The notes under the pieces are model-generated. The model saw only the letters and a list, made by a program, of their open reading frames with translations. It was not told the origin of the DNA and ran no database searches. Source: Eubacteriaceae bacterium (lineage in GTDB: Bacteria > Bacillota > Clostridia > Lachnospirales > Lachnospiraceae). Taken from it: DNA of 64,000 nucleotides. The DNA is taken from the NCBI GenBank assembly GCA_910574895.1, contig CAJTDQ010000001.1, forward strand, positions 434,001-498,000, read 5' to 3'. Of this stretch, positions 3,211 to 27,140 are shown piece after piece. Positions within the stretch are counted from its first letter, which is position 1; every line of letters starts with the position of its first letter. The position numbers and the translations under genes were made by a program.

Positions 3211-3226
3211 AATCATGGAGGTGCCT

Positions 3227-4042
3227 ATGAAACCAATTGCTGTATTATCCGGAGACAAACGACAGGATTATATCTGTCAGTATTTAAACAATCATGGATA
3301 CAATGCATATTTGAAATCCACTATGGATTTTAATCAGGACGAATATATTATTTGTTCCACACCATTATGCAAAAAAGGAAAGTATTTAAATTGTGACTTT
3401 TATTCCAGTTTTCCGATGGAAACATTTATGAATCTTCTAAAGCCCGGTCAGACAATTTTTGCCGGAAGCATTCCAAAAGATTTTTATAATAATAAATCTT
3501 TCAATTTCATAGATGTTCTTCATGATGAAACTGTTGTGTGGAATAATGCTGTTCTTACAGCTGAGGGACTTGTTTCATCAATTATCACCCACACTGACTC
3601 TACTATAAAAAATGCCAGAATACTCATTCTGGGTTTTGGTAAATGTGGTATTAATGTGGCAAGAATATTAACTTCCCTATCCGGAAAAGTTTCAATTTAT
3701 GACCACACAGCCCTTCATCTGATACAGGCAAGAGCATATGGATACGAGGGCATTGAATATGAAGACTTAATTCATCATATTCATAAATTTGATATGATTA
3801 TCAACACAGTTCCAACTGATATCTTTCAGGAAATCCACTATATGAAAGCCAAAAACAGTTGTGTGTTATTTGAAATCGCCTCTGCTCCTTACGGTTTTAA
3901 GGAGGATTTCGCAAATAAATATAATTTATCTCTCATTACATGCCCTGGCATACCCGGTGTTACAGCACCGAAAGCTGCTGGGGAATTAATTGCGAAAAGC
4001 ATAATTTCATATTTAGAAAGGACTGAGATAAATGGTTCATAA
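3227..4042 (+). CDS. dpaA: Dipicolinate synthase subunit A
   Basis: This protein (271 aa) is the oxidoreductase subunit (SpoVFA) that, with DpaB, converts the lysine-pathway intermediate dihydrodipicolinate to dipicolinic acid in the mother cell; the product is loaded into the forespore core. A Rossmann motif, ILGFGKCGINVARIL, lies near residue 140. The C-terminus has the family's CPGIPGVTAPKAAGELIAKSI segment. The start is the ATG at 3227, preceded by GGAGG; an ATG at 3215 sits on that ribosome site. dpaB overlaps its 3' end. A sigma-K-like promoter lies just upstream. Its presence indicates an endospore-forming genome. Confidence 0.93.
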   Translation: MKPIAVLSGDKRQDYICQYLNNHGYNAYLKSTMDFNQDEYIICSTPLCKKGKYLNCDFYSSFPMETFMNLLKPGQTIFAGSIPKDFYNNKSFNFIDVLHDETVVWNNAVLTAEGLVSSIITHTDSTIKNARILILGFGKCGINVARILTSLSGKVSIYDHTALHLIQARAYGYEGIEYEDLIHHIHKFDMIINTVPTDIFQEIHYMKAKNSCVLFEIASAPYGFKEDFANKYNLSLITCPGIPGVTAPKAAGELIAKSIISYLERTEINGS

Positions 4043-4637
4043 CTTTAAAGATAAGAACATTGGTGTAGGAATTACCGGTTCTTACTGTACCTACAAAAAA
4101 GTATTTGAAGAACTTAAGCGGCTTGCAGATACAAAAGCAAATATATTTACTATTTTTTCAGATCATGCTTCCACAACAGACAGTCGTTTTGGAAAATGTA
4201 AAGATTTTTTACAAATGGCTGAGGAAATCAGTGGAAGACCACCAATCACAACAATACCGGATGCTGAGCCTATCGGTCCGAAATCCATGTTGGACATTTT
4301 AATTATTGCCCCATGTACCGGCAATACTTTATCAAAATTAGCAAACGGTATCTCTGATACACCAGTCTTAATGGCTGCAAAAGCACATCTTAGAAATAAC
4401 AGACCTTTAGTAATTTTCTTAAGCACAAACGATGCATTGGGAATGAATTTAAAAAATATTGGAATTCTTCTAAATACAAAAAATATTTTCTTCGTACCTT
4501 TCGGACAGGATAACTATATTACAAAACCGAACTCTATGATAGCTCACGTAGATTTAATTGAAGAAACAATTGAAAAAGCATTGGGCGGCAGACAGATTCA
4601 GCCTGTTATTAAAAGTCCACATGTTACGATTCTATAA
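4032..4637 (+). CDS. dpaB: Dipicolinate synthase subunit B (flavoprotein)
   Basis: The protein has 201 residues, the usual SpoVFB length. It belongs to the Dfp/UbiX-like flavoprotein fold: an N-terminal GVGITGSYCTYKKVFEELK nucleotide-binding start, then IAPCTGNTLSKLANGISDTPVLMAAKA, a typical DpaB core. With DpaA it makes dipicolinate for spore heat resistance and core dehydration. Its ATG overlaps the dpaA stop by 11 bases, suggesting coupled translation and equimolar subunits. asnB starts 19 bases after its stop in the same direction. Confidence 0.93.
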   Translation: MVHNFKDKNIGVGITGSYCTYKKVFEELKRLADTKANIFTIFSDHASTTDSRFGKCKDFLQMAEEISGRPPITTIPDAEPIGPKSMLDILIIAPCTGNTLSKLANGISDTPVLMAAKAHLRNNRPLVIFLSTNDALGMNLKNIGILLNTKNIFFVPFGQDNYITKPNSMIAHVDLIEETIEKALGGRQIQPVIKSPHVTIL

Positions 4638-4656
4638 TTTTATTTAGGAGTATTTT

Positions 4657-6501
4657 ATGTGCGGTATCGCTGGTTTTTATCAATTAAAACATGATGTTTT
4701 TAAAGATTATTCTTTTAACCTTTTGAAAAACAAATTAATTAATATGAAAAATTCCATAAAACATCGTGGTCCAAACGATGATGAAATTTATATGGAAGGT
4801 TTCTGCGGATTAGCCCATACAAGATTATCAATTCGTGACTTAAAGGGTGGTCACCAGCCTATGACAAGACGTTATAACGGCAGACGGGCTACCATCGCTT
4901 ACAATGGCGAACTATATAATACGAATGAATTAAAACACCGATTATCATCATATGATATTGATTTGAGAACAACCAGCGATACTGAAATCATCCTTTATTG
5001 CTATCTTGTTTTTGGAACAAAAATTTTTAAAGATTTCAATGGAATCTTTGCATTTGCTATCTATGATAATAATAAATTAATTATTGCAAGAGATCATGTT
5101 GGTGTAAAACCTTTATTCTTCTATATGGATGAAAAGCAGTTTGTCTTCTCTTCCGAACCAAAAGGTATATTCGCCTACGGAATCGAACCAAAACTTAATA
5201 ATGACAGCTGGTGCGAAATCATCGGACTCGGACCTGCCCATACACTGGGAAATGGAGTATTTGCAGGAATTCGTGAGATTCTTCCCGGACATTTTATTTC
5301 TGTTACTCTTAATGAAAATAGAAATATTTCTTTATCAGATACCTGTTTTTGGAAACTAACCAGCAGAATACACAGGGATGATTACGCCTCTACTGTCTGT
5401 TATACAAACTATTTAATTGAAGACAGTATCAAAAAACAGATGGTGTCTGATATCCCTATCTGTACCTTTTTGTCGGGAGGACTGGATTCCAGCCTCGTTT
5501 CTTCTATTGTAAGCAGTAACCTTGGAGACAAAAAGTTGAATACCTATTCATTCGATTTTGTAGACAATGATATCAACTTTAAAGCCAACTCATTCCAGAC
5601 TACAAGAGACAGACCTTTCGTAGACATCATGACTGAGTATATTGGCAGTAACCACAAATATCTGGAATGTAACAATGCGGACCAGATAAACTGTCTGTTT
5701 GAGGCAGTCGATGCCAGAGATATGCCTTGTATGGCAGATGTTGAGTCCTCAATGTTATATTTCTGCAGACTGGTTTCCAGAGAATGTAAGGTAACCTTAA
5801 CCGGAGAATGTGCTGACGAAATATTTGGAGGCTATCCATGGTTCCACAGAACAGATATGTTAAATCAAAATACCTTCCCATGGTCTTACGATATGAATGC
5901 ACGAACTTATTTATTTAAAAAAGATTTTATTGACGAATTAAACATTGACGATTATGTAAAAAATGCCTATGAAACATCTGTAAGCGAATGCGAATATTTA
6001 AATGACGAAAATGAAACGGAAACATTACGCCGAAAAGTTACGTGGCTGAATATCAAATGGTTTATGATGACGCTTCTTACCAGAATGGACCGGTGCAGTA
6101 TGTTTTCAGGGCTTGAAGCCAGAGTTCCTTTTGCAGATTATCGTATATTAGAATATGTATTCAATATCCCTTGGGAATACAAATGCTATCATAATCAGAC
6201 CAAAAGTCTGCTGGTAGAATGTGGAAAGAAATATCTTCCGGATGAAATTCTGTATAGAAAGAAAACTCCATATCCAAAGACATATGATCCAAATTATGAG
6301 AAGATGCTGGGACAAATGGTTTTAGAAGAATATAATTCAAATCTTTTTCTTCAGACAATTATTGATAAAGAAAAACTGCTCAGCTTTGTAAACAGTCCAA
6401 AAGATTACGGCAAACCTTGGTATGGCCAGCTTATGGCAGGCCCCCAGATGCTTGCCTATATATTGCAGATTGGATACTGGCTAAGAAAATATAATTTATA
6501 A
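4657..6501 (+). CDS. asnB: Glutamine-hydrolysing asparagine synthase, in the dpaAB operon
   Basis: This 614-aa enzyme makes asparagine from aspartate, glutamine and ATP. The N-terminal class II glutaminase domain begins MCGIAGFY, with Cys2 as nucleophile after Met removal. The synthetase half has the PP-loop FLSGGLDSSLVSSI (about residue 270) and GECADEIFGGYPWF (about 385). A ribosome site (AGGAG) precedes the ATG, 19 bases after dpaB. The tight linkage to dpaAB behind a sigma-K-type promoter suggests use in the mother cell. Bacillus subtilis has a sporulation-specific asparagine synthetase (AsnO), so there is a precedent, but the link here is inference. It ends at a two-way terminator shared with the convergent gene. 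Confidence 0.93.
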   Translation: MCGIAGFYQLKHDVFKDYSFNLLKNKLINMKNSIKHRGPNDDEIYMEGFCGLAHTRLSIRDLKGGHQPMTRRYNGRRATIAYNGELYNTNELKHRLSSYDIDLRTTSDTEIILYCYLVFGTKIFKDFNGIFAFAIYDNNKLIIARDHVGVKPLFFYMDEKQFVFSSEPKGIFAYGIEPKLNNDSWCEIIGLGPAHTLGNGVFAGIREILPGHFISVTLNENRNISLSDTCFWKLTSRIHRDDYASTVCYTNYLIEDSIKKQMVSDIPICTFLSGGLDSSLVSSIVSSNLGDKKLNTYSFDFVDNDINFKANSFQTTRDRPFVDIMTEYIGSNHKYLECNNADQINCLFEAVDARDMPCMADVESSMLYFCRLVSRECKVTLTGECADEIFGGYPWFHRTDMLNQNTFPWSYDMNARTYLFKKDFIDELNIDDYVKNAYETSVSECEYLNDENETETLRRKVTWLNIKWFMMTLLTRMDRCSMFSGLEARVPFADYRILEYVFNIPWEYKCYHNQTKSLLVECGKKYLPDEILYRKKTPYPKTYDPNYEKMLGQMVLEEYNSNLFLQTIIDKEKLLSFVNSPKDYGKPWYGQLMAGPQMLAYILQIGYWLRKYNL

Positions 6502-6550: not shown

Positions 6551-9175
6551 TTAGTTTATTTCATCCTTTATCAAATAATTTTCAAGGCTGCTGTCCCCCC
6601 TGATACTCTCTTCAATCTGTTTATTAACCCTGTCAATTTCTTCCTTAAAGTTCATCGCAGACATCCTGAGAGCTCCGTGTCCCATAATAATTAATTGTTC
6701 CAATGCATCTGAGGTAGCTACCGTCACACGATATTTACTAGCCATCTGATGAGTTGTCTTTGCAATGTACATATCTGCCGTTTCTGCAGCCTTTGTAAAT
6801 ACCACATAGATATTATTATGTTTATAGATAGTTTCCTTATGTCTGTTTACATTGTAAGCATCAAACACCACAATGACCGTATTATCTTTATATCCCTGAT
6901 AATTGGACATGATATCAAGCAACCGGTCTCTCGCCCCATCAATATTCTTTGACGCAATATCTTTTAATTCTTCCCATGCAAAAATAATGTTATATCCATC
7001 TACCAGAACACATTCGGGAAGATTATTATTCTGCTTTCCTTTGTACTGCTTCGGTTTCTGCTGATAATTCCTTACTGTTGTCTCCGTATATTCCTTTCTC
7101 TTAATTGGTCCGAATGTCTTTTCAAAAATCGCCTCCAGTTCTTTGTCTGTGGCATATGAATCATTCACAGACTTCGTAGTTTTTCTATTAATTATTACAT
7201 CTGAACTATTTGTCTCTTCCACTTCTTTATCTATAGAATTAAGATTCAGTGATGTTTTCACATGCATATAATTTTCTACTTCATTCCACGGAACGTTGAA
7301 TCCAGCCCCATGCGCACAGAATACGGAACCGGTTGGATTTCTCAAATCTGCCTCACTGTCATATCCTGCTTTTTCAATCACTTCTTGTGCATTGTGACAT
7401 GGTGCGTATCCTTTAAACTTCAATGTCAATGTTCCCTGTCCATGGGAATACTCATTCACATCATTGATATAATTCCACATCGTTGAAACGGGTGCATAAC
7501 CAGTCAATACACTTTTCTCATGAACTGTCTCCGGCGGATTCATCGTACCTTCCATCTGACTAATATCAGTCATAGCTCTTCCCACACTATCTGTAGGAAT
7601 CGTTAATGTAAAATCATAATAAGGTTCCAGTAAAACAGATTCTGCTTTCTTTAATCCCTGCCTCACTGCACGATAAGTCGCCTGTCTGAAATCACCACCC
7701 TCTGTATGTTTCAGATGTGCATTCCCACCTACGATTGTAATGCAGATGTCCGTAATCGGTGCTCCGGTAAGCACACCTCTATGCGTTTTTTCTTCTAAAT
7801 GTGTCATAATCAGTCTCTGCCAGTTTTTGCTTAATTCATTCTCACTGACATGGCTTTCAAAAGTCAATCCACTGCCCGGCATTCCCGGTTCTAATAATAG
7901 ATGTACTTCTGCATAATGACGCAATGGTTCAAAATGACCCACACCTTCCACAGTATTCGTTATTGTTTCTTTATATAAAATGCTTCCTGCACCAAACTCT
8001 ACATCCAAGTCAAACCTTTCTTTAATTAGACTTTTTAAAACTTCTATCTGAACCTGTCCCATAACACTAGTGGTCAATTCTTTCTTTTCTTCATTCCAGG
8101 TTATCTTTAATGTAGGGTCTTCTTCCTCTAATTCTTTTAATTGTTGATACACCTGATTCATATGAACCTTATTTTGTACATCTAACTTGTAGGAAAGTAC
8201 CGGTATCAGGCTTGGAGATATTTCCTCTGTCTCAAATCCCAGTCCTTCTCCCTGATAAGTGTTTGTAAGGCCTATGATAGCACAGACATCTCCTGCCTTC
8301 ACTTCACCTACAGCATCATACTTTTCACCGGAGTAAACCCGTATCTCATTGACCTTCTCACTCCATTCAATAGCTCCATTCATTCCACTTAAAATATCTT
8401 TTACCTTTAAACTTCCACCTGTTATTTTCAAGTGTGTCAGACGGTTATTGTTATGATCCTTTGAAATCTTAAATACTTTTGCACCAAAATTTTCTGAATA
8501 AATTGATTCATAGGTATATTGATACAGTCCTTCCAGCAGACTGTCTACACCGTCTAACTGCAGTGCGGAACCAAAATAGCATGGAAACAGATTTCTATTG
8601 TATATCAACTCTGAAATGGTAGTGTCACTAATTTCTCCACCCTCCATGTAAGTTTCAAACAAGTCTTCATCACACATGGCAATATCTTCCATTGTTCCCA
8701 CGCCGGCAGGAAATCTTACCACGGAATCGCTCAGTTTTTCTTTAATTTCATGCAGCAGAAAATCACCACTGACATTCGGCATATCCATTTTATTTACAAA
8801 TAAAAATGTAGGAACATGATAAGTTTCTAACAGTTTCCAAAGTGTCTCTGTATGTCCCTGTACACCTTCACTTCCACTTACAACTAAAACTGCATAATCA
8901 AGCACTGATAATGTCCGTTCCATCTCTGCCGAAAAATCCACATGACCGGGAGTGTCCAGCAAAATAAGACGCATATCATTGTATTCCATCACAGCCTGTT
9001 TCGAGAATATTGTTATTCCTCTGTCACGCTCCATCTGGAATGTATCAAGATATGCATCTTTGTGATCTACTCTTCCTAATTTTCTTATTTTTCCTGTAGT
9101 ATATAATAGTGCCTCTGACAATGTTGTCTTACCACCATCGACATGAGCCACAATACCAATTGTTATTTTCTTCAT
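6551..9175 (-). CDS. TetM-like ribosomal GTPase fused to a C-terminal YacP/Rae1-type NYN endoribonuclease domain
   Basis: The protein has 874 residues against about 640 for Tet(M)/Tet(O). Residues 1-650 are an EF-G-like translation factor: P-loop AHVDGGKTT, switch RGITIF, DTPGHVD, NKMD, then domains II-V. Domain IV-V ends with GSVFCAHGAGF, unlike classic Tet(M). A charged linker (about 655-720) leads to residues 722-860, a clear YacP/Rae1 NYN domain: VDGYNII, ARDRL, VVFDAYNV, AAETADMYI, ATSDALEQLI and GHGALRMSA, with all acidic positions kept. Rae1 of B. subtilis cleaves mRNA in the ribosomal A site. The fusion therefore suggests a GTPase that brings a nuclease to ribosomes; true tetracycline resistance is unproven. 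The start is the ATG at 9175, where Tet(M) homology begins. No Shine-Dalgarno is present and a -10 lies 7 bases upstream, so the mRNA may be leaderless. Confidence 0.9.
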   Translation of the reverse strand: MKKITIGIVAHVDGGKTTLSEALLYTTGKIRKLGRVDHKDAYLDTFQMERDRGITIFSKQAVMEYNDMRLILLDTPGHVDFSAEMERTLSVLDYAVLVVSGSEGVQGHTETLWKLLETYHVPTFLFVNKMDMPNVSGDFLLHEIKEKLSDSVVRFPAGVGTMEDIAMCDEDLFETYMEGGEISDTTISELIYNRNLFPCYFGSALQLDGVDSLLEGLYQYTYESIYSENFGAKVFKISKDHNNNRLTHLKITGGSLKVKDILSGMNGAIEWSEKVNEIRVYSGEKYDAVGEVKAGDVCAIIGLTNTYQGEGLGFETEEISPSLIPVLSYKLDVQNKVHMNQVYQQLKELEEEDPTLKITWNEEKKELTTSVMGQVQIEVLKSLIKERFDLDVEFGAGSILYKETITNTVEGVGHFEPLRHYAEVHLLLEPGMPGSGLTFESHVSENELSKNWQRLIMTHLEEKTHRGVLTGAPITDICITIVGGNAHLKHTEGGDFRQATYRAVRQGLKKAESVLLEPYYDFTLTIPTDSVGRAMTDISQMEGTMNPPETVHEKSVLTGYAPVSTMWNYINDVNEYSHGQGTLTLKFKGYAPCHNAQEVIEKAGYDSEADLRNPTGSVFCAHGAGFNVPWNEVENYMHVKTSLNLNSIDKEVEETNSSDVIINRKTTKSVNDSYATDKELEAIFEKTFGPIKRKEYTETTVRNYQQKPKQYKGKQNNNLPECVLVDGYNIIFAWEELKDIASKNIDGARDRLLDIMSNYQGYKDNTVIVVFDAYNVNRHKETIYKHNNIYVVFTKAAETADMYIAKTTHQMASKYRVTVATSDALEQLIIMGHGALRMSAMNFKEEIDRVNKQIEESIRGDSSLENYLIKDEIN

Positions 9176-16153: not shown

Positions 16154-19100
16154 TTATTTATAATTTTTATCACTTTCCAACTGTTCCGGTTCAAATCCAA
16201 TGTCAACTGCCTGACCGATATTATTTAAGTTTGCATCCAGTTTAATGGCTATCAATGAATACAATTTGCACTCAGCATGAAGATTGTTTAAATATCCATG
16301 ACTGTTCCTGTACAAATTAATATCAGTATTTGTAATTGCACCATCTGTCAGACCAGATAAATTCAGTCCAAAATCAAACCTGCTTACATTGTCAAAAGAA
16401 TAAGAACGGATAATATTTCCAAGAGACACATCTTCTATAGCTCCACTATTACTGCTGTCTAAAATTTTATCTCTTATGCTGTCGGACATATTCAATGCAA
16501 AGCATAAATCTGACATAATATTGTTCTGCATTTCTTTATAAGTACGTTTCATATAAAAATCCTTATTTTCCTTAATAGTCTCTGTCTTTTTTGTAGTAGA
16601 CTGTGGTATCCAGAAAAGTACCTTTTTATATTTTGTTGTTGTCACTGTTTTTTCCAACTCGTATTGAATGTTCTTATGAATATATACATGCGTAGGTGTC
16701 ACATAAAAATCTGTAGTAATTTTCTGACTGTCTGATTTCAAACTATAAGATGTTTTTACCTCAGTCTTTGTCTTACTTGTAGACTCTGTTGTTTCTGTTG
16801 TTGTTCCCGGAACCAGTACATTACTGTCTGTTATGCTCTTCATATATGGTACATCTGCATGTACATTTCCATATACTCCTTCTTTCTCTACCTTTAATTT
16901 TGCAGACAATGGAACATCTTTCAGATTAATATCGAACAATCCTAAACTTAATGCAAGACTTGCCTTTGCACTCACATCAAAATTCATGTTTCCTGCTGTC
17001 TCTCCAAAGGCTTTTAATAATGTATCAATACTGCTTACATCAATATATCCACTTCCTTCCGGCTGCATAGAAACTGTTGTTGAATCATATAGTCTGAGAT
17101 AAAATTCGCTGTCTCCAAACTGCCCTTTATAAGAGATATCCTGACCGCTGATATTAAGATTGTCAAATATTTTTGCAATATGAATTTCTTTTCCGCTTAA
17201 GATATCATTCACTCCATCCATATCTGCATACTGTCTGAACATTTCAAGATTAATATCTTTTTCATCTTCTACGATATTAAGCCACTGCAGGACAGGTGTA
17301 ATATCAACATCGTAAATTTTCAAAACAGCATTTATAATTGATGCGACAGAACTATCATCCGACGTTACTTTTAAACCATCAATTTCTACATAAACGGTCT
17401 TATTTTCATATACAACAGATAGTTGTTTCCCACCAATTACAGTCTTCAAAGTGACAGCCGGCTGATTTCTCCATTTTTTCACAAAATCTATTACTGCCTT
17501 TAAGTCTACATATTTTTCGGCATCTGCTATTTCTGTTACTTTTGTATCTATAATCTCTCCCTGAATCATATCATTCACGGAAATTTTCTTTCCTGATACA
17601 GTAATTTTTAATGACGTATCACTATTATAAACAAAGGAAAGTTCTTTACCATCACAACGGAATTGCGAAATTTTACCAAGAATATCCTTCACAGATACTT
17701 CCGTATCAATATTTATTCCATTGTCTTTTAACATAGAAATAATATATGGTAACTCTGTCTTTATATAAACATTTCCTGTATGCAAATATAAATTGCCATT
17801 GAAGTATATTATCTTAGCTGTAAGTTCACTCTGATTGATATTGAACTGAACATCCGCCTCAATTCCTGTAGCATTTAGTAAATCTTCCACACCAAATTGT
17901 TTTAAAACTTCTAAGGCATCTGTTACTTTGCTGTAATCAGTGCTTTCAACTTCAATAGCAGGTGACTGATTATAGATTTCCTGTATATCCAATATCACAT
18001 CCAGCTTTGTATCATTTATTTCTGTTCTAATAGAAATCTGGTCCTTATCAAGACTAATTTCAATCTCCTGCTTATCTGTTAATACTGTTATTACAATCCT
18101 GTCATCTATAATCTGAATGCCTTTTATCTTATCTGTAATCTGAGACAACTCATCATTATTTATAATGCCGGACAAAACTTTACTTATCTTATCGTAAATC
18201 AGGTTAATACCGGATGCATTAATATATAAATTATCTTCCTTTACAGTCGCTGTTATATCAATGCCTTCTATCTGTGTTTTCAATTGACATGCCGGACTCT
18301 CGCCAAATGCAGCTGTTATCTGACCTGTAATTTCATAATCATTCAGCTTTGCCCGGACACCAGCTTTAATACCTTTTGCTTTTATCAGCTGCTCAATTTT
18401 CTGAATGTCGATAATTTCTAACACTTTATTTAAATCAAGATATTTATCATCCTGATATTCTGATTTTTCAATCATTGTTCTATCAAAGAAATCTGCCAGA
18501 ACAATTTTGCCGCTAACTGCTGTATTGCCGATTTTTATCCCATCTAAACTGATCTCATCTCTATGACTTTCCAAAACAGCATTCAGTTTCACATTATTTT
18601 CCCGATACACTATCATAAGTCTGCCATCTTTGAACGTGATATTTTCTATATTTAGCAGCATTGCAAGAGAAATCTGTTCTGTAATATCCTTTCCTGCAAA
18701 TATCTGTTCAAGTTCATATCCGGTATACTTTTTAATAAGATTAAATAATGTTTCCTTTGTTGACTTCAGATAAAACTTACCAAAATGTACATAGATAAAA
18801 TCATCTACATATGTCAGTTCTATGCTCTTATCCTTATAAGGAATAACTATTTTGCATCCATTTACCGATTTATCATAAATAATGTCTGCTGCAATCTGAT
18901 AGTCTCCAAATTTTATATCTGCCTGAAATCCCAACGCTTTGGAATTTTGTATATTACTGATATTATTTTTGATAAGCTGATAAGCATCACCAAAATCAAC
19001 ATACTGCGTCTCATTATCTACAATAATATTCTGATTCTTTGTATTATTTATTTTTGCACTGACATCCAATTGTTTCCCTGAAATCTTTATACCTTTTACT

Positions 19101-22100
19101 GTCACTGTTCTTCCTGTCACAGCGATATCAAGATTGTTGTCTTTCAAACGGTATAAAACTTTCAGTGTTTTTCCATCACATGAGAATGAGCGGACATTCT
19201 GAATCATATCTTTTGCTGACAGTTCTCCTATCATTTGTTCCAGTACTGTAGAGAAATCCTCTGCAAAAACCTTTGAAACATTCTGCTGCTTTAATACCTG
19301 TGATAGAACTTTCTCTAAATCAGACAGTGTGGTTTTTACATGAATATTTGCTGCGTCAACAAAAATCCTGCCATCAATATACTTGATTGTTACCGGAATT
19401 ACAGCCTTTTGGTCTGTAATATTTGTGGAAATTAACAGTGCGACCTTATCTCGATAATCAGCCTTTACATTGGCTTTAATATTCATTCCGGCTATATTTA
19501 AAACAATATCAGTATCAATACCGGTCGATGTAATAATATCTTCTAAACCTAGCTGTTCCAGTACATTGATAATATCAGAAAGTTTTGTATACTCACTACT
19601 GTTTACACTGATAATCGGCGACTTCGTATAAATCTTTTTGATTGTTAATTTTGCATTAAGATTCATGCCAAGTACTGCAGTAGATAACAATAAAGTTTTT
19701 TTCTTTAACTTGATTGTTGCGAGTTGTCCTTTTGCATATTTATATTGAACAATTAAGAAACCTTTTTTATACTGGAACGTTTTTACATTTCCAATAACAT
19801 CTTTGATAGTAAAACGTCCTGCATATTCTTTTATAAGACTTTCAAAGGCATCACCAAAAGACTCTGCCTCAGACAGTGTCTTACTTTTCAGCGGAATACC
19901 TGCTTTTTTCAAAATACCTTTTAGTAACTGATATGTATATTTAGAAGAACCTTTTACGCTGATATTTCCGGATTTTGCATATATCACATCGTTTTTGTAA
20001 ATCAGTGTAATCGGTATCCCTTCAATATTAGTTGTATATTTTATTTGGAAACCTTTATCATAAACTGCCTTCGCTATACCTTTTAATTCAAAACCATTTC
20101 CTGAAATTCTCGTATCTAAAAGAATGCCTTTTGATTTTAATAACTTATAAAGGCTTAATTTCGACAACGATTTCAATATAACCTCAGTACTTACATACCT
20201 CGATTTTTTTACTTTTACTTTCGGATTCTTTTTATACTTTTTTGTTATACGGGCTTTTGCTGTAAAACTCTTTCCCTGATTTATTTTAATGGTATTTTTA
20301 CTTATCGCCAGTTTGAAAGTAAGTTTGTTTATAGATGCCTTAACAATAAGATACCCATCTTTAAAACTTACTGATTTCACATCTTTTAACAACTTTTTAA
20401 TATTGATGTTCCCATCCTTTAATTGCTTAATCGTTTTTGCATACTGTTTTGGTATCAGTTGATTTTTCTTCATGTCGATACCAACCATTACCATCACTTT
20501 TCTAACAGTACTTTCAATATCTTTAAGTTTACATTTAACTCTGATATTTTGTGCGCTGATGTACACAAATTTTCCTACAATAGCCGCATTCAGATTCACA
20601 CCTTCAATCTTTGTCGAAAATTTCAACTTCAAAGGTTCATAACCAAGGACTGCCTTCCCTGAAATTTTCAGGTCCTGTGTTTTCATAGATACTTTAGCTC
20701 CGATGCCTTTTGCCTGTATGGTATCAACCCATGGCTGTATCAATGTAGTGACCTTTGAAATATCGTGAAATCCATTGAACTTAGGAAAATCTGTTTTTGA
20801 TGTAGTTGTTATCTTTGCAGTGACATCACTGTCTGCTAATTTTAATGAAATGTCTGCATATTCAAGATTTACATTCTCATCTTTTAATGCGACTTTTATA
20901 TTTGCCTTAATTCCATCTTTTGAGAATGCCACTTTAATTGCATCTTTGGACTGCTCCATTTTCACATTATTTAACAGTCCGGACACTGTCTTATCATCCA
21001 ATGAAATATGTTTCAGATCTATTTGTGTCAAATAATCTATATTGATTGACTCTGTCTTTGTATCAACTGCTTTACCTATCATTTGGACTGCTTCAAAAAT
21101 ACTGTCAGTTTTCATGGAAACCTTAACATTTCCATATCGCAGATACACTTTTTTATCAGCATACGCAGCAAATAAATTTTTTCCCTTTATTTTAATAATG
21201 CCATTATTGATATCAACAAACATATCCAAATTTAGATTTGTTTTATCTACAACTAAATCCATATGATAGTAAGGCTTATTCGTAAACATGTCTTTAATAT
21301 ATTTGGACATGTCTGTATCTTTCTTTGTCGGCAGATCAGATAATTTGTTTTTATCGTATTTATTTTTAATAAAATCATCTACACTTCCTTCATCCGGCAA
21401 AGCTTTCACTTCACCAAAATCAGAGAATGTTTCTGTAATTTCTCCCTGACAGGTAACATCTCCCACAACTGCAATACTGATATCATAGTTTTCACTATAA
21501 TGAATTACCAAAGGTCTCCACTGCTTATCCATTGTTACCGTGACCTTCACACTATGAAATATCGGATAATCTGACGCACCGCCTTCTGTTCTCATCTGTC
21601 TCTTATAATATACGGTAGATGCATCCGGCTTTAACTCATACTCAAACTTATATTTATCTTTGTCTGTGTCCAGCTTTTTAGACTTTATTATTGTTGTTTT
21701 ATCAATTACATAATTAGTCAGGGCAAATGGTGTCCTTCCATAATTCTGCGAATATGTATCTTTTGAAACTGCTGTAAAATCATCTTCCCATTCAATATCT
21801 TCCATTGATTTTACCTTTTTTGCATTTCTAATAAGTATCGCTCCATCTTTAAACGTACGCTGTTGTCCTGTACTCAATAATGAACTTTCACTTGCTGACT
21901 GTTGTGTAGCATTTCCATTTTTTATAACTTTCCTCGCTGAGATATTCTGGGTATAATTCATAAACAGAACATCTGCTACTGCCGTTCCTTCTGTTTTAGA
22001 AGTCCACGCGTTCATATTTTTTATAACACTCTGGCAGATAGAAATATTCTCTTCCGGTGAATAGTCATCCGGTGTCGAATCATCTTTTGGAATATTCTTG

Positions 22101-22279
22101 TATGTTTCATTTTCTACTACTTTTGTTCTATCTATTGTTTTACTTTCTGTCGTATCTTTGAGAAAAAGGGAATGTACTAAAGTACCGATGATTAATGCCG
22201 CAAACACAAAAAGAATTGCTGCTATTACCTTTTTCTTTTTACTCATAACTTTCTTTTGTTTCTCACTTGTTTTTTTCAC
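16154..22279 (-). CDS. Giant membrane-anchored repeat protein (2041 aa), family not recognised
   Basis: The start is a GTG at 22279, 7 bases after GGGAGG. Residues 1-45 are a basic cytoplasmic start plus one hydrophobic signal-anchor (VIAAILFVFAALIIGTLVHSLFL), so the rest should face outside. Residues about 45-330 are a unique Asp/Lys-rich region. From about 330 to 1750 there are some seven or eight imperfect units, each near 200 residues: a Leu-rich helix plus 'GI..D..I', an alternating-residue beta segment ('TNIEGI.I....Y.D.IYV...NI.VK'), another Leu-rich helix, 'F.YK.GFLIV.Y' and 'KKIY.K.P.I.V..SEY'. The last units are shortened. A different Ser/Thr/Lys-rich C-terminal region ends the protein. 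No LPXTG, catalytic motif or known domain is visible. The alternating beta pattern vaguely recalls LolA/LppX-type lipid-binding folds. Function is unknown. Confidence 0.85.
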   Translation of the reverse strand: MKKTSEKQKKVMSKKKKVIAAILFVFAALIIGTLVHSLFLKDTTESKTIDRTKVVENETYKNIPKDDSTPDDYSPEENISICQSVIKNMNAWTSKTEGTAVADVLFMNYTQNISARKVIKNGNATQQSASESSLLSTGQQRTFKDGAILIRNAKKVKSMEDIEWEDDFTAVSKDTYSQNYGRTPFALTNYVIDKTTIIKSKKLDTDKDKYKFEYELKPDASTVYYKRQMRTEGGASDYPIFHSVKVTVTMDKQWRPLVIHYSENYDISIAVVGDVTCQGEITETFSDFGEVKALPDEGSVDDFIKNKYDKNKLSDLPTKKDTDMSKYIKDMFTNKPYYHMDLVVDKTNLNLDMFVDINNGIIKIKGKNLFAAYADKKVYLRYGNVKVSMKTDSIFEAVQMIGKAVDTKTESINIDYLTQIDLKHISLDDKTVSGLLNNVKMEQSKDAIKVAFSKDGIKANIKVALKDENVNLEYADISLKLADSDVTAKITTTSKTDFPKFNGFHDISKVTTLIQPWVDTIQAKGIGAKVSMKTQDLKISGKAVLGYEPLKLKFSTKIEGVNLNAAIVGKFVYISAQNIRVKCKLKDIESTVRKVMVMVGIDMKKNQLIPKQYAKTIKQLKDGNINIKKLLKDVKSVSFKDGYLIVKASINKLTFKLAISKNTIKINQGKSFTAKARITKKYKKNPKVKVKKSRYVSTEVILKSLSKLSLYKLLKSKGILLDTRISGNGFELKGIAKAVYDKGFQIKYTTNIEGIPITLIYKNDVIYAKSGNISVKGSSKYTYQLLKGILKKAGIPLKSKTLSEAESFGDAFESLIKEYAGRFTIKDVIGNVKTFQYKKGFLIVQYKYAKGQLATIKLKKKTLLLSTAVLGMNLNAKLTIKKIYTKSPIISVNSSEYTKLSDIINVLEQLGLEDIITSTGIDTDIVLNIAGMNIKANVKADYRDKVALLISTNITDQKAVIPVTIKYIDGRIFVDAANIHVKTTLSDLEKVLSQVLKQQNVSKVFAEDFSTVLEQMIGELSAKDMIQNVRSFSCDGKTLKVLYRLKDNNLDIAVTGRTVTVKGIKISGKQLDVSAKINNTKNQNIIVDNETQYVDFGDAYQLIKNNISNIQNSKALGFQADIKFGDYQIAADIIYDKSVNGCKIVIPYKDKSIELTYVDDFIYVHFGKFYLKSTKETLFNLIKKYTGYELEQIFAGKDITEQISLAMLLNIENITFKDGRLMIVYRENNVKLNAVLESHRDEISLDGIKIGNTAVSGKIVLADFFDRTMIEKSEYQDDKYLDLNKVLEIIDIQKIEQLIKAKGIKAGVRAKLNDYEITGQITAAFGESPACQLKTQIEGIDITATVKEDNLYINASGINLIYDKISKVLSGIINNDELSQITDKIKGIQIIDDRIVITVLTDKQEIEISLDKDQISIRTEINDTKLDVILDIQEIYNQSPAIEVESTDYSKVTDALEVLKQFGVEDLLNATGIEADVQFNINQSELTAKIIYFNGNLYLHTGNVYIKTELPYIISMLKDNGINIDTEVSVKDILGKISQFRCDGKELSFVYNSDTSLKITVSGKKISVNDMIQGEIIDTKVTEIADAEKYVDLKAVIDFVKKWRNQPAVTLKTVIGGKQLSVVYENKTVYVEIDGLKVTSDDSSVASIINAVLKIYDVDITPVLQWLNIVEDEKDINLEMFRQYADMDGVNDILSGKEIHIAKIFDNLNISGQDISYKGQFGDSEFYLRLYDSTTVSMQPEGSGYIDVSSIDTLLKAFGETAGNMNFDVSAKASLALSLGLFDINLKDVPLSAKLKVEKEGVYGNVHADVPYMKSITDSNVLVPGTTTETTESTSKTKTEVKTSYSLKSDSQKITTDFYVTPTHVYIHKNIQYELEKTVTTTKYKKVLFWIPQSTTKKTETIKENKDFYMKRTYKEMQNNIMSDLCFALNMSDSIRDKILDSSNSGAIEDVSLGNIIRSYSFDNVSRFDFGLNLSGLTDGAITNTDINLYRNSHGYLNNLHAECKLYSLIAIKLDANLNNIGQAVDIGFEPEQLESDKNYK

Positions 22280-25446: not shown

Positions 25447-27045
25447 TTATCTGTCCCACTTATCGCACAGTGACTGAATCTGACTGGTAAACTTCGCAAT
25501 ATCTTTATTCGTTCCACCTTCATTACGCTTAATAACAGCCATCAGTCTATGACCTGCATTCACAAGATTTTCATAGAGACCTGTTGCTCTTCTTTGTTTT
25601 GCTTTCTGACTGATCCGAATAGGAATACCTTCCTTAACCAATTCTCCTGTTGCCAGATTAATCTGTGTTCCACTATATGGAGCATAAGTCTGATACCCGT
25701 ATTCTTTATTCAATAATTCTGCAAATATATCGCAGACTGTATCTTCCCCATGAACCACAAAAACTTTTTCCGGCCTTTGTTTCATAGCCTGAAGCCATTT
25801 TATCAGCTGTTTCTGATCCCCATGTCCACTGATTCCTTTTAAATTTTCAATATGGGCATTTACTGCAATTTCTTCCCCGAAAAGTTTTACCGTCTTTGCA
25901 CCTTCAAGAATTGCCCGCCCAAGAGTTCCCAGTGTCTGAAATCCTACAAACAAAATTGTATTGTTTTCTCTCCACAAATTATGCTTTAAATGATGTCTGA
26001 TACGACCTGCTTCACACATTCCGGAAGCCGACAGAATCACTTTTGGTTTTGTATTCTCATTAATTGCAATCGAATCATTACTGGTTACTGATAGTTTCAA
26101 TCCTTCAAAACGTAATGGATTGATTCCATTGCGAATCAATTCCATTGTCTCCTCATCAAAGCATTCTAATACATTTCCATTAAAAATTGATGTAGCTTCC
26201 ACTGCCAAAGGACTATCGACATATACTTCAAAATTCGGAAAATTCTTTACCATATTATCTTTTTTAATCTGTCGTATAAAATATAACATTTCCTGTGTTC
26301 TACCTACGGCAAAAGAAGGAATTACAACATTTCCTCCTCTGGCAAATGTTTCGTTTAAAATTCTAGCCAGTTCCCCGACATAATCCGGTCTTTCTCCATG
26401 CAGTCTGTCTCCATATGTAGACTCAATCAAGACATAATCTGCTCCCTCCATGCTAACCGGGTCTTTAATTATCGGTTTGTCAATATTTCCAATATCTCCC
26501 GAGAAAATAATTTTCTTTGAAACATTCTCTTCCGTCAATGTCATTTCAATACTTGCAGAACCAAGTAAATGTCCTGCATCTACATATTTCACTTTAATCT
26601 CATTACATATTTTCACATCTGTATTATACTCCAGAGGCACCATTAGGTCGCATGCCCTGACAGCATCTTCCATAGTATATATAGGCTCCATAGCTTCTCT
26701 ACCGGCCCGCTTTGCTTTTCTGCTCTTCCACTGTGCCTCAAATTCCTGAATATGTGCACTGTCCCGTAGCATAATATTGCATAACTGACATGTGGCTTTT
26801 GTAGCAAACACTTCTCCTTTAAACCCTCTCTTTACCATGAGTGGTATTAATCCGGAATGGTCTATATGTGCATGTGTAAGGAAAATATAATCAATCTCTC
26901 CTGCCATAACAGGTAATTCCTGATTCACGTAGATATCCTTTCCCTGTTCCATACCACAATCTATAATGGCTTTCTTTTCTCCGACCTCAATATAATGGCA
27001 GCTTCCTGTCACTTCATGATCTGCACCTAAAAATGTAAGAATCAT
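25447..27045 (-). CDS. Metallo-beta-lactamase/beta-CASP RNA-processing exonuclease (YSH1/CPSF-like)
   Basis: The protein has 532 residues. The zinc motif is THAHIDHSG (HxHxDH, about residue 50), followed by GHLLGSASIE, SGDIGN, the beta-CASP signature SASGMCEAGRIRHHL (motif B area) and ISGHGDQ near residue 390. The family cuts RNA 3' ends or degrades RNA; the bacterial members are close to archaeal CPSF-like nucleases and distinct from RNase J. A C-terminal Arg/Lys-rich tail (about 485-530) may bind RNA. The start is the ATG at 27045 after AGGAGAGG; the frame upstream lacks homology. It is a single gene between convergent htpG and the following Dus gene, 50 bases from the latter's stop. Confidence 0.9.
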   Translation of the reverse strand: MILTFLGADHEVTGSCHYIEVGEKKAIIDCGMEQGKDIYVNQELPVMAGEIDYIFLTHAHIDHSGLIPLMVKRGFKGEVFATKATCQLCNIMLRDSAHIQEFEAQWKSRKAKRAGREAMEPIYTMEDAVRACDLMVPLEYNTDVKICNEIKVKYVDAGHLLGSASIEMTLTEENVSKKIIFSGDIGNIDKPIIKDPVSMEGADYVLIESTYGDRLHGERPDYVGELARILNETFARGGNVVIPSFAVGRTQEMLYFIRQIKKDNMVKNFPNFEVYVDSPLAVEATSIFNGNVLECFDEETMELIRNGINPLRFEGLKLSVTSNDSIAINENTKPKVILSASGMCEAGRIRHHLKHNLWRENNTILFVGFQTLGTLGRAILEGAKTVKLFGEEIAVNAHIENLKGISGHGDQKQLIKWLQAMKQRPEKVFVVHGEDTVCDIFAELLNKEYGYQTYAPYSGTQINLATGELVKEGIPIRISQKAKQRRATGLYENLVNAGHRLMAVIKRNEGGTNKDIAKFTSQIQSLCDKWDR

Positions 27046-27140
27046 ATAAAACCTCTCCTTTCTAGAACTCCTTGTAATACGCCGAAACATGATTAATTTA
27101 CATATATACTAGCATTCTGTAAGGTGAAAAGCAATTTTAT

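Follow-up and report, generated by a model that had tools for sequence, protein, structure and literature searches.

The gene at positions 6551 to 9175 of the stretch analysed here (64,000 nucleotides of contig CAJTDQ010000001.1 from an Eubacteriaceae bacterium, referred to below as the window) encodes a translational GTPase joined in one polypeptide to an endonuclease domain of the Rae1/YacP type. Judged from its sequence and its relatives, the product may be a GTP-controlled, ribosome-delivered mRNA endonuclease of an uncharacterised GTPase class, in which the GTPase body would sense an empty A site before the nuclease cuts, and which would have replaced free Rae1 in several clostridial families; confidence in this complete description falls slightly short of even. 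A ribosome-linked mRNase role had been proposed in a first-pass annotation of the window and is supported as the likeliest reading. The fusion looks like a housekeeping means of bringing the Rae1 cutter to the ribosome, not like tetracycline resistance.

The gene is read from the minus strand as a single uninterrupted frame of 874 codons plus stop (P0001), with the ATG at 9175 and the stop at 6551-6553, while the plus strand over the same interval is closed by many stops. Neither a stop nor a frameshift, which the first-pass annotation had named as evidence that would speak against the fusion, was present between the two domains. The start codon matches that of several relatives in the alignment, and no Shine-Dalgarno sequence was evident ahead of the ATG on inspection by eye. 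Pfam matches to GTP_EFTU (E 7e-53), EF-G_D2 (residues 231-308), EFG_III (325-395), EFG_IV and EFG_C cover residues 4-596, and are followed in the same frame by NYN_YacP (E 3e-46; 157.8 bits, above the curated cut-off of 24.6), which bears out the fused architecture first proposed. Motifs G1 to G5 are intact (AHVDGGKTT, RGIT, DTPGH, NKMD and GSA). Together with the GTP_EFTU match and EF-G domains III, IV and V, they place the protein in the translational GTPase superfamily.

In a scan of named genomes with a domain IV-V profile, the best 80 of 589 related stretches were kept as loci. A complete fused open reading frame (ORF) was found in 69 of these 80, including a finished chromosome of Hungatella hathewayi (L134). 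Chance and an assembly artefact were therefore rejected, and the fusion is present in relatives, whose lack of it had also been named beforehand as a sign against it. By record title, the hosts include Lachnospiraceae, Oscillospiraceae, Hungatella hathewayi, Anaerovorax odorimutans and Desulfosporosinus acididurans. Sampling across the phylum gave a strong GTPase match in 26 of 299 genomes; the frame was 850-930 amino acids (aa) long in 20 of them and 650-675 aa in the other 6. Within the genus, 13 of 23 genomes had the GTPase, and all 13 had the NYN domain too; one further genome, cut by a contig end, had the NYN domain. Nine same-genus genomes of 1.1-1.7 Mb and 59-96% completeness have neither half (G001, G003, G009, G011, G015, G017, G018, G020 and G021). 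This may reflect loss with genome reduction, though several of them are incomplete.

The relation of the fusion to free rae1 was followed in a class-level sample of 195 genomes with at least 95% completeness, where GTPase and NYN states were tallied by hand from profile-match tables. The fusion was present in 72 genomes, a separate GTPase together with a separate rae1 in 8, the GTPase alone in 6, rae1 alone in 52, and neither in 57. Separate rae1 thus occurs in 60 of the 195 genomes, and in no case together with the fusion above the curated cut-off (Fisher p 7e-16, overstated since the genomes are related). The 72 fused genomes include six without one intact full-length frame: G099 and G194 have two overlapping frames, G116, G198 and G199 are cut by contig ends, and G229 is short N-terminally. 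Five families (f1, f41, f42, f45 and f64) each mix fused and separate-rae1 genomes, never with both states in one genome, which suggests that free rae1 was replaced by the fusion repeatedly across clostridial families.

In the source genome, a genome-wide NYN_YacP search returned one match, the fusion, which is the sole Rae1 found there. Of 40 distinct free rae1 genes, 35 have rlmB within 160 bp in the same orientation. The source genome has the series cysS, mrnC, rlmB, identified by eye and with TIGR00186, and the gene directly after rlmB is by eye helicase-like, so the usual rae1 slot is empty. Free rae1 genes without an adjoining rlmB were found in L208, L212 and L214 (family f42), L003 and L185 (G246); in L212 rlmB is 1.8 kb away, L208 lies near a contig end and L003 is a short locus. 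Relocation or fission is possible for these five, but the NYN tree described below puts none of them inside the fused clade. One genome, G155, has two unfused GTPase copies (L151 and L152) plus free rae1.

Phylogenies of the two parts were of the quick type, unrooted and with SH-aLRT support only. In the GTPase tree (87 rows, the fused ones thinned to about 66% identity; L093, L121 and L168 left out and L172 not taken up), the 63 fused rows formed one clade with a support of 100. Nineteen unfused relatives fell outside it, and Tet proteins and EF-G lay beyond a further branch (support 95). In the NYN tree (103 rows; L002, L012, L121, L226 and L227 left out), 63 fused rows again formed one clade, with a support of 92, whose neighbours were some free rae1 genes of the same family and order. 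A single fused clade in both trees points to one probable origin of the fusion, in which a local rae1 was joined to a pre-existing GTPase. Both domains are under purifying selection, with dN of about 0.1 and dS near saturation against the closest genus relative (L027). In the six pairs compared, the dN of the linker exceeded that of the two domains by a factor of 1.6 to 3.3.

The nuclease domain aligns to residues 3-142 of Bacillus subtilis Rae1 (5MQ9) with an E value of 1.6e-27. Asp 7, 53, 81 and 104 of 5MQ9 correspond to D726, D772, D801 and D823 (numbering counted from the printed alignment). These four residues and N729 did not vary in any of the 142 fused NYN rows or of the 44 rows that have an NYN domain but no in-frame GTPase. 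The rows are not independent, since the source gene is present more than once and the 44 consist of two broken fusions and 40 different free genes, of which two entered twice. The first-pass annotation was right that the acidic sites of the protein are intact. Some of the four aspartates are presumably catalytic.

The C-terminal end of the domain differs between the two forms. The match to PF05991 reached model position 162 or beyond in 58 of 60 free Rae1 proteins vs 26 of 72 fused ones, and stopped at or before position 150 in 34 of the 72. A strict end motif (E-K-x-R-R), which is a common free-Rae1 trait and not a curated criterion, was present in 32 of 40 free Rae1 vs 2 of 144 fused rows and absent in the source fusion, and a relaxed pattern was present in 38 of 40 vs 23 of 144 (rows L121, L226 and L227 left out of both counts). 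In B. subtilis, the R166P substitution behaves as a loss of Rae1 function according to PMC6613710. R166 would belong to the free-Rae1 end motif, a placement made by inference because the tail lay outside the alignment. Compared with B. subtilis Rae1/YacP (5MQ8/5MQ9), the clostridial fusion keeps the NYN domain and all four aligned aspartates, but it is joined to a GTPase, lies away from rlmB, whereas the free gene stands beside yacO/rlmB, and lacks the tail usual in free clostridial Rae1. Erosion of this tail suggests that ribosome docking was handed over to the GTPase.

By sequence, the fusion GTPase is a subfamily of its own, related to yet distinct from EF-G and the Tet ribosomal protection proteins. 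Against the NCBIfam model tet_protect (NF012153) it scored 430.6 bits, below the cut-off of 775, vs 879.8 for a Tet(M) control. Against the EF-G model TIGR00484 it reached 318.9 of the 659.4 bits required, although it has domains I-V and the G motifs of EF-G; the source genome also encodes its own EF-G and an EF-G-like second copy. The five-domain EF-G-like layout is shared with Tet(O) and Tet(M), and the best PDB match of the GTPase is Tet(O) (E 2.9e-78). However, among the plasmid matches listed (50 of 1336 records), full-length copies of tet(O), tet(M) and tet(S) are about 28-31% identical to it, identity to the Tet(O) and Tet(M) proteins is about 29-31%, and the domain IV loops differ. In addition, domain V is followed by a conserved extension that is common to fused and unfused subfamily members and not found in the Tet sequences compared.

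The SPVST loop of Tet domain IV has a role in displacing tetracycline. Tet(O), Tet(M) and TetB(P)-like sequences used for comparison have this loop, but none of the 145 fused rows or the 29 other subfamily rows does. The tip of the subfamily reads H-T-x-G-G-D-F-R, mostly after H-x-K, in 141 of the 145 fused rows (132 of the 145 reach 800 aa or more; some are fragments, and some genes entered repeatedly), and in 27 of the 29 rows without NYN, which are 21 clean unfused genes plus L168 (the source gene cut off), L121, L093, L138, L146, L226, L227 and L228.

These data bear on a reading in print. Atkinson et al. 2015 (PMC4342817) reported that Tet proteins carry a YacP-like NYN domain in ten clostridial species and suggested a role in antibiotic resistance; protection of the ribosome from tetracycline or another antibiotic would then be the task of the GTPase, and the RNase part would belong to a new resistance mechanism. 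The same source states that domain IV loops of Tet act on tetracycline. This reading, which the best PDB match, Tet(O), would favour, agrees with current database names, since NCBI labels a fused Agathobacter rectalis protein and the unfused Ligilactobacillus ones as TetM/TetW/TetO/TetS family; a fused Monoglobus protein is named translation factor GTPase family protein. It is nevertheless very improbable in view of the tet_protect scores, the missing SPVST loop and the low identity to tet genes. A true Tet protection gene above the cut-off was found in 15 of the 195 class-level genomes, and 5 of these are among the 72 that have the fusion as well. The view in the first-pass annotation that the protein is no tetracycline-resistance protein is thus favoured, though not proven.

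The unfused members of the subfamily share the extension and the tip loop type but are without the NYN domain, and an unfused copy is present in 14 class-level genomes, 6 of which gave no match to YacP whatever. Megaplasmids of Ligilactobacillus salivarius carry such an unfused relative, with close copies in 33 Ligilactobacillus records. In L. salivarius UCC118 it lies on pMP118 (L172 3986-5920; LSL_RS10690; about 51% identity), adjoins rpsN (S14) and is annotated as a Tet resistance protein. Another copy is on NZ_CP116813, within the accession set CP116812-CP116815 of L. salivarius P1CEA3, and this strain is tetracycline sensitive, with a reported MIC (minimum inhibitory concentration) of 1 µg/mL (PMC10778751). 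The measurement speaks against resistance, but indirectly for the fusion, as it concerns the unfused relative.

A mobile resistance gene is likewise disfavoured, at least 80% of the fusion being covered in just 2 of 72,556 plasmid and 2 of 50,697 phage records. The phage records MT835563.1 and MT835514.1 (H26 and H27), unannotated human faecal "Bacteriophage sp." contigs, matched 98% of the fusion at 50-52% identity. An anti-phage defence system was also considered and rejected, with PADLOC models matched in 0 families.

Free Rae1 is described as an A-site mRNA endonuclease (PMC12320835, PMC6613710). We give about an even chance to the proposal that such an enzyme was joined once to a distinct GTPase and acts by GTP-dependent docking and then tethered cutting in the A site. 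With GTP bound, the GTPase module would settle on the factor-binding site when the A site of the ribosome is empty, and the His-rich tip of domain IV would probe that A site. GTP hydrolysis would free or withdraw the GTPase module, and the tethered Rae1 domain would then cut the mRNA in the A site. Finally, the cut message would be degraded and the ribosome would become a substrate of trans-translation. GTP-driven docking on paused ribosomes and a swing of the nuclease on its linker, as put forward in the first-pass annotation, are proposals, and so is the order of events.

Several points weigh against this proposal. Domain IV and the nuclease should not fit one A site together; since they would compete for it, sequential action after GTP hydrolysis would be favoured. 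The system is dispensable, as 57 of the 195 genomes have neither GTPase nor rae1. The unfused GTPase, present in 14 of the 195 (in a broken frame in G241), shows no association with separate rae1 (8 with, 6 without; Fisher p 0.58), and the GTPase therefore seems to serve a purpose for which Rae1 is not required; a functional link between unfused GTPase and free rae1 through co-occurrence was rejected on the same counts. The difference in the tail is partly one of lineage, as the nearest free Rae1 (L185 and L012) already depart from the strict motif, and in 79 of 144 fused rows the tail is still 28 residues long or longer. Three fused genomes (G167, G216 and G245) have a second, weak NYN_YacP match of about 21 bits, vs the 24.6 cut-off, in frames of 163-165 aa, which may be a distant second nuclease.

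The main rival, which we hold unlikely but the most serious of the alternatives, is that the linker is a loose tether. The GTPase would have an older job of its own, which would be to clear or reset the A site of ribosomes that are stalled or idle, and joining Rae1 to it would just keep the nuclease near ribosomes; Rae1 would cut on neighbouring or collided ribosomes independently of GTP. The unfused GTPase genes and the conflict over one A site would suit this rival, as would the variable linker, which is less constrained than the domains; between the two profile matches it has a median length of 76 residues, and split matches inflate the longest values in part. On the other hand, the two parts go together within the genus, in presence as in absence, the fusion has been kept over many families, and the eroded tail suggests that docking was handed over. 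Sequential GTP-driven action and a loose tether are not separable by sequence alone.

An improbable alternative is a factor for rRNA or tRNA processing or for ribosome assembly, whose GTPase would bind immature or damaged ribosomes and whose nuclease part would trim RNA. In its favour, a part in the maturation of rRNA and tRNA has been suggested for the NYN domain (cited in PMC4342817), free rae1 shares a transcript with yacO, an rRNA methylase gene, in B. subtilis (PMC6613710), and the proximity of free rae1 to rlmB points the same way. The reported cutting of mRNA by Rae1 speaks against this role, as does the position of the fusion gene away from the rlmB locus in the source genome. Moreover, no neighbour group recurs in more than 13 of 172 loci, many of them short; the largest group is asparagine synthase-like, and gene neighbourhood was rejected as a functional clue on this count.

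The features of the gene are collected in Table 1. Close to it, and convergent, the window has on the plus strand (3215-6501) dipicolinate synthase A, a 201-aa gene resembling its partner B by eye, and an asparagine synthase named by eye; this trio recurs in 10-13 of the 172 loci. On the minus strand, the window also contains a beta-CASP metallo-hydrolase with an RNA-specificity domain (RNase J-like; 25447-27090, about 16 kb from the fusion) and a 2041-codon ORF with no Pfam match (16154-22279).

Table 1. Positions in the window of the fusion gene and its parts.
Feature	Position	Strand	Basis
Whole fusion gene, 874 codons plus stop (P0001)	6551..9175	-	One open frame; start as in relatives
GTP-binding domain, residues 4-221, G1-G5 intact	8513..9166	-	Pfam and motif alignment
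EF-G domain IV, residues 398-512	7640..7984	-	Pfam
Tip loop of domain IV, residues 487-497 (HLKHTEGGDFR), signature of the subfamily where Tet has SPVST	7685..7717	-	Alignment
EF-G domain V, residues 514-596	7388..7636	-	Pfam
Conserved C-terminal GTPase extension, residues 597-645 (GSVFC..HG region), also in unfused relatives	7241..7387	-	Alignment
Variable charged linker, about residues 646-720	7016..7240	-	Alignment, dN
NYN YacP/Rae1 endonuclease domain, residues 723-866, with D726, N729, D772, D801 and D823	6578..7009	-	Pfam, 5MQ9 alignment
Shortened C-terminus, residues 860-874, lacking the E-K-x-R-R ending common among free Rae1	6554..6598	-	Tail motif comparison

The statement of the first-pass annotation that no description of the fusion had been published was wrong, in view of the report by Atkinson et al. 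2015. Compared by description, their Clostridiales proteins have the same two parts, a Tet-like translational GTPase and a YacP-like NYN domain, but were called Tet proteins with a possible resistance role, whereas here the GTPase is of a non-Tet subfamily and the fusion seems to replace rae1. No further description of the fusion was found in the literature searched, which did not take in the main Rae1 papers. That literature likewise yielded no functional description of a GTPase-delivered mRNA endonuclease, nor any report that the fusion replaces rae1, that the fused proteins form one clade, that the GTPase belongs to a subfamily apart which has unfused members, that it falls short of the Tet criteria, or that the Rae1 tail was lost.

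For resistome surveys, the result means that members of this subfamily in gut bacteria are listed as TetM/TetW/TetO/TetS resistance against the sequence evidence and against one measured strain, which carries an unfused relative. For the translational GTPases, it means that an uncharacterised subfamily exists both with and without a nuclease. For Rae1, the natural fusion that seems to replace it identifies a partner, and with it the way in which Rae1 finds paused ribosomes becomes directly testable.

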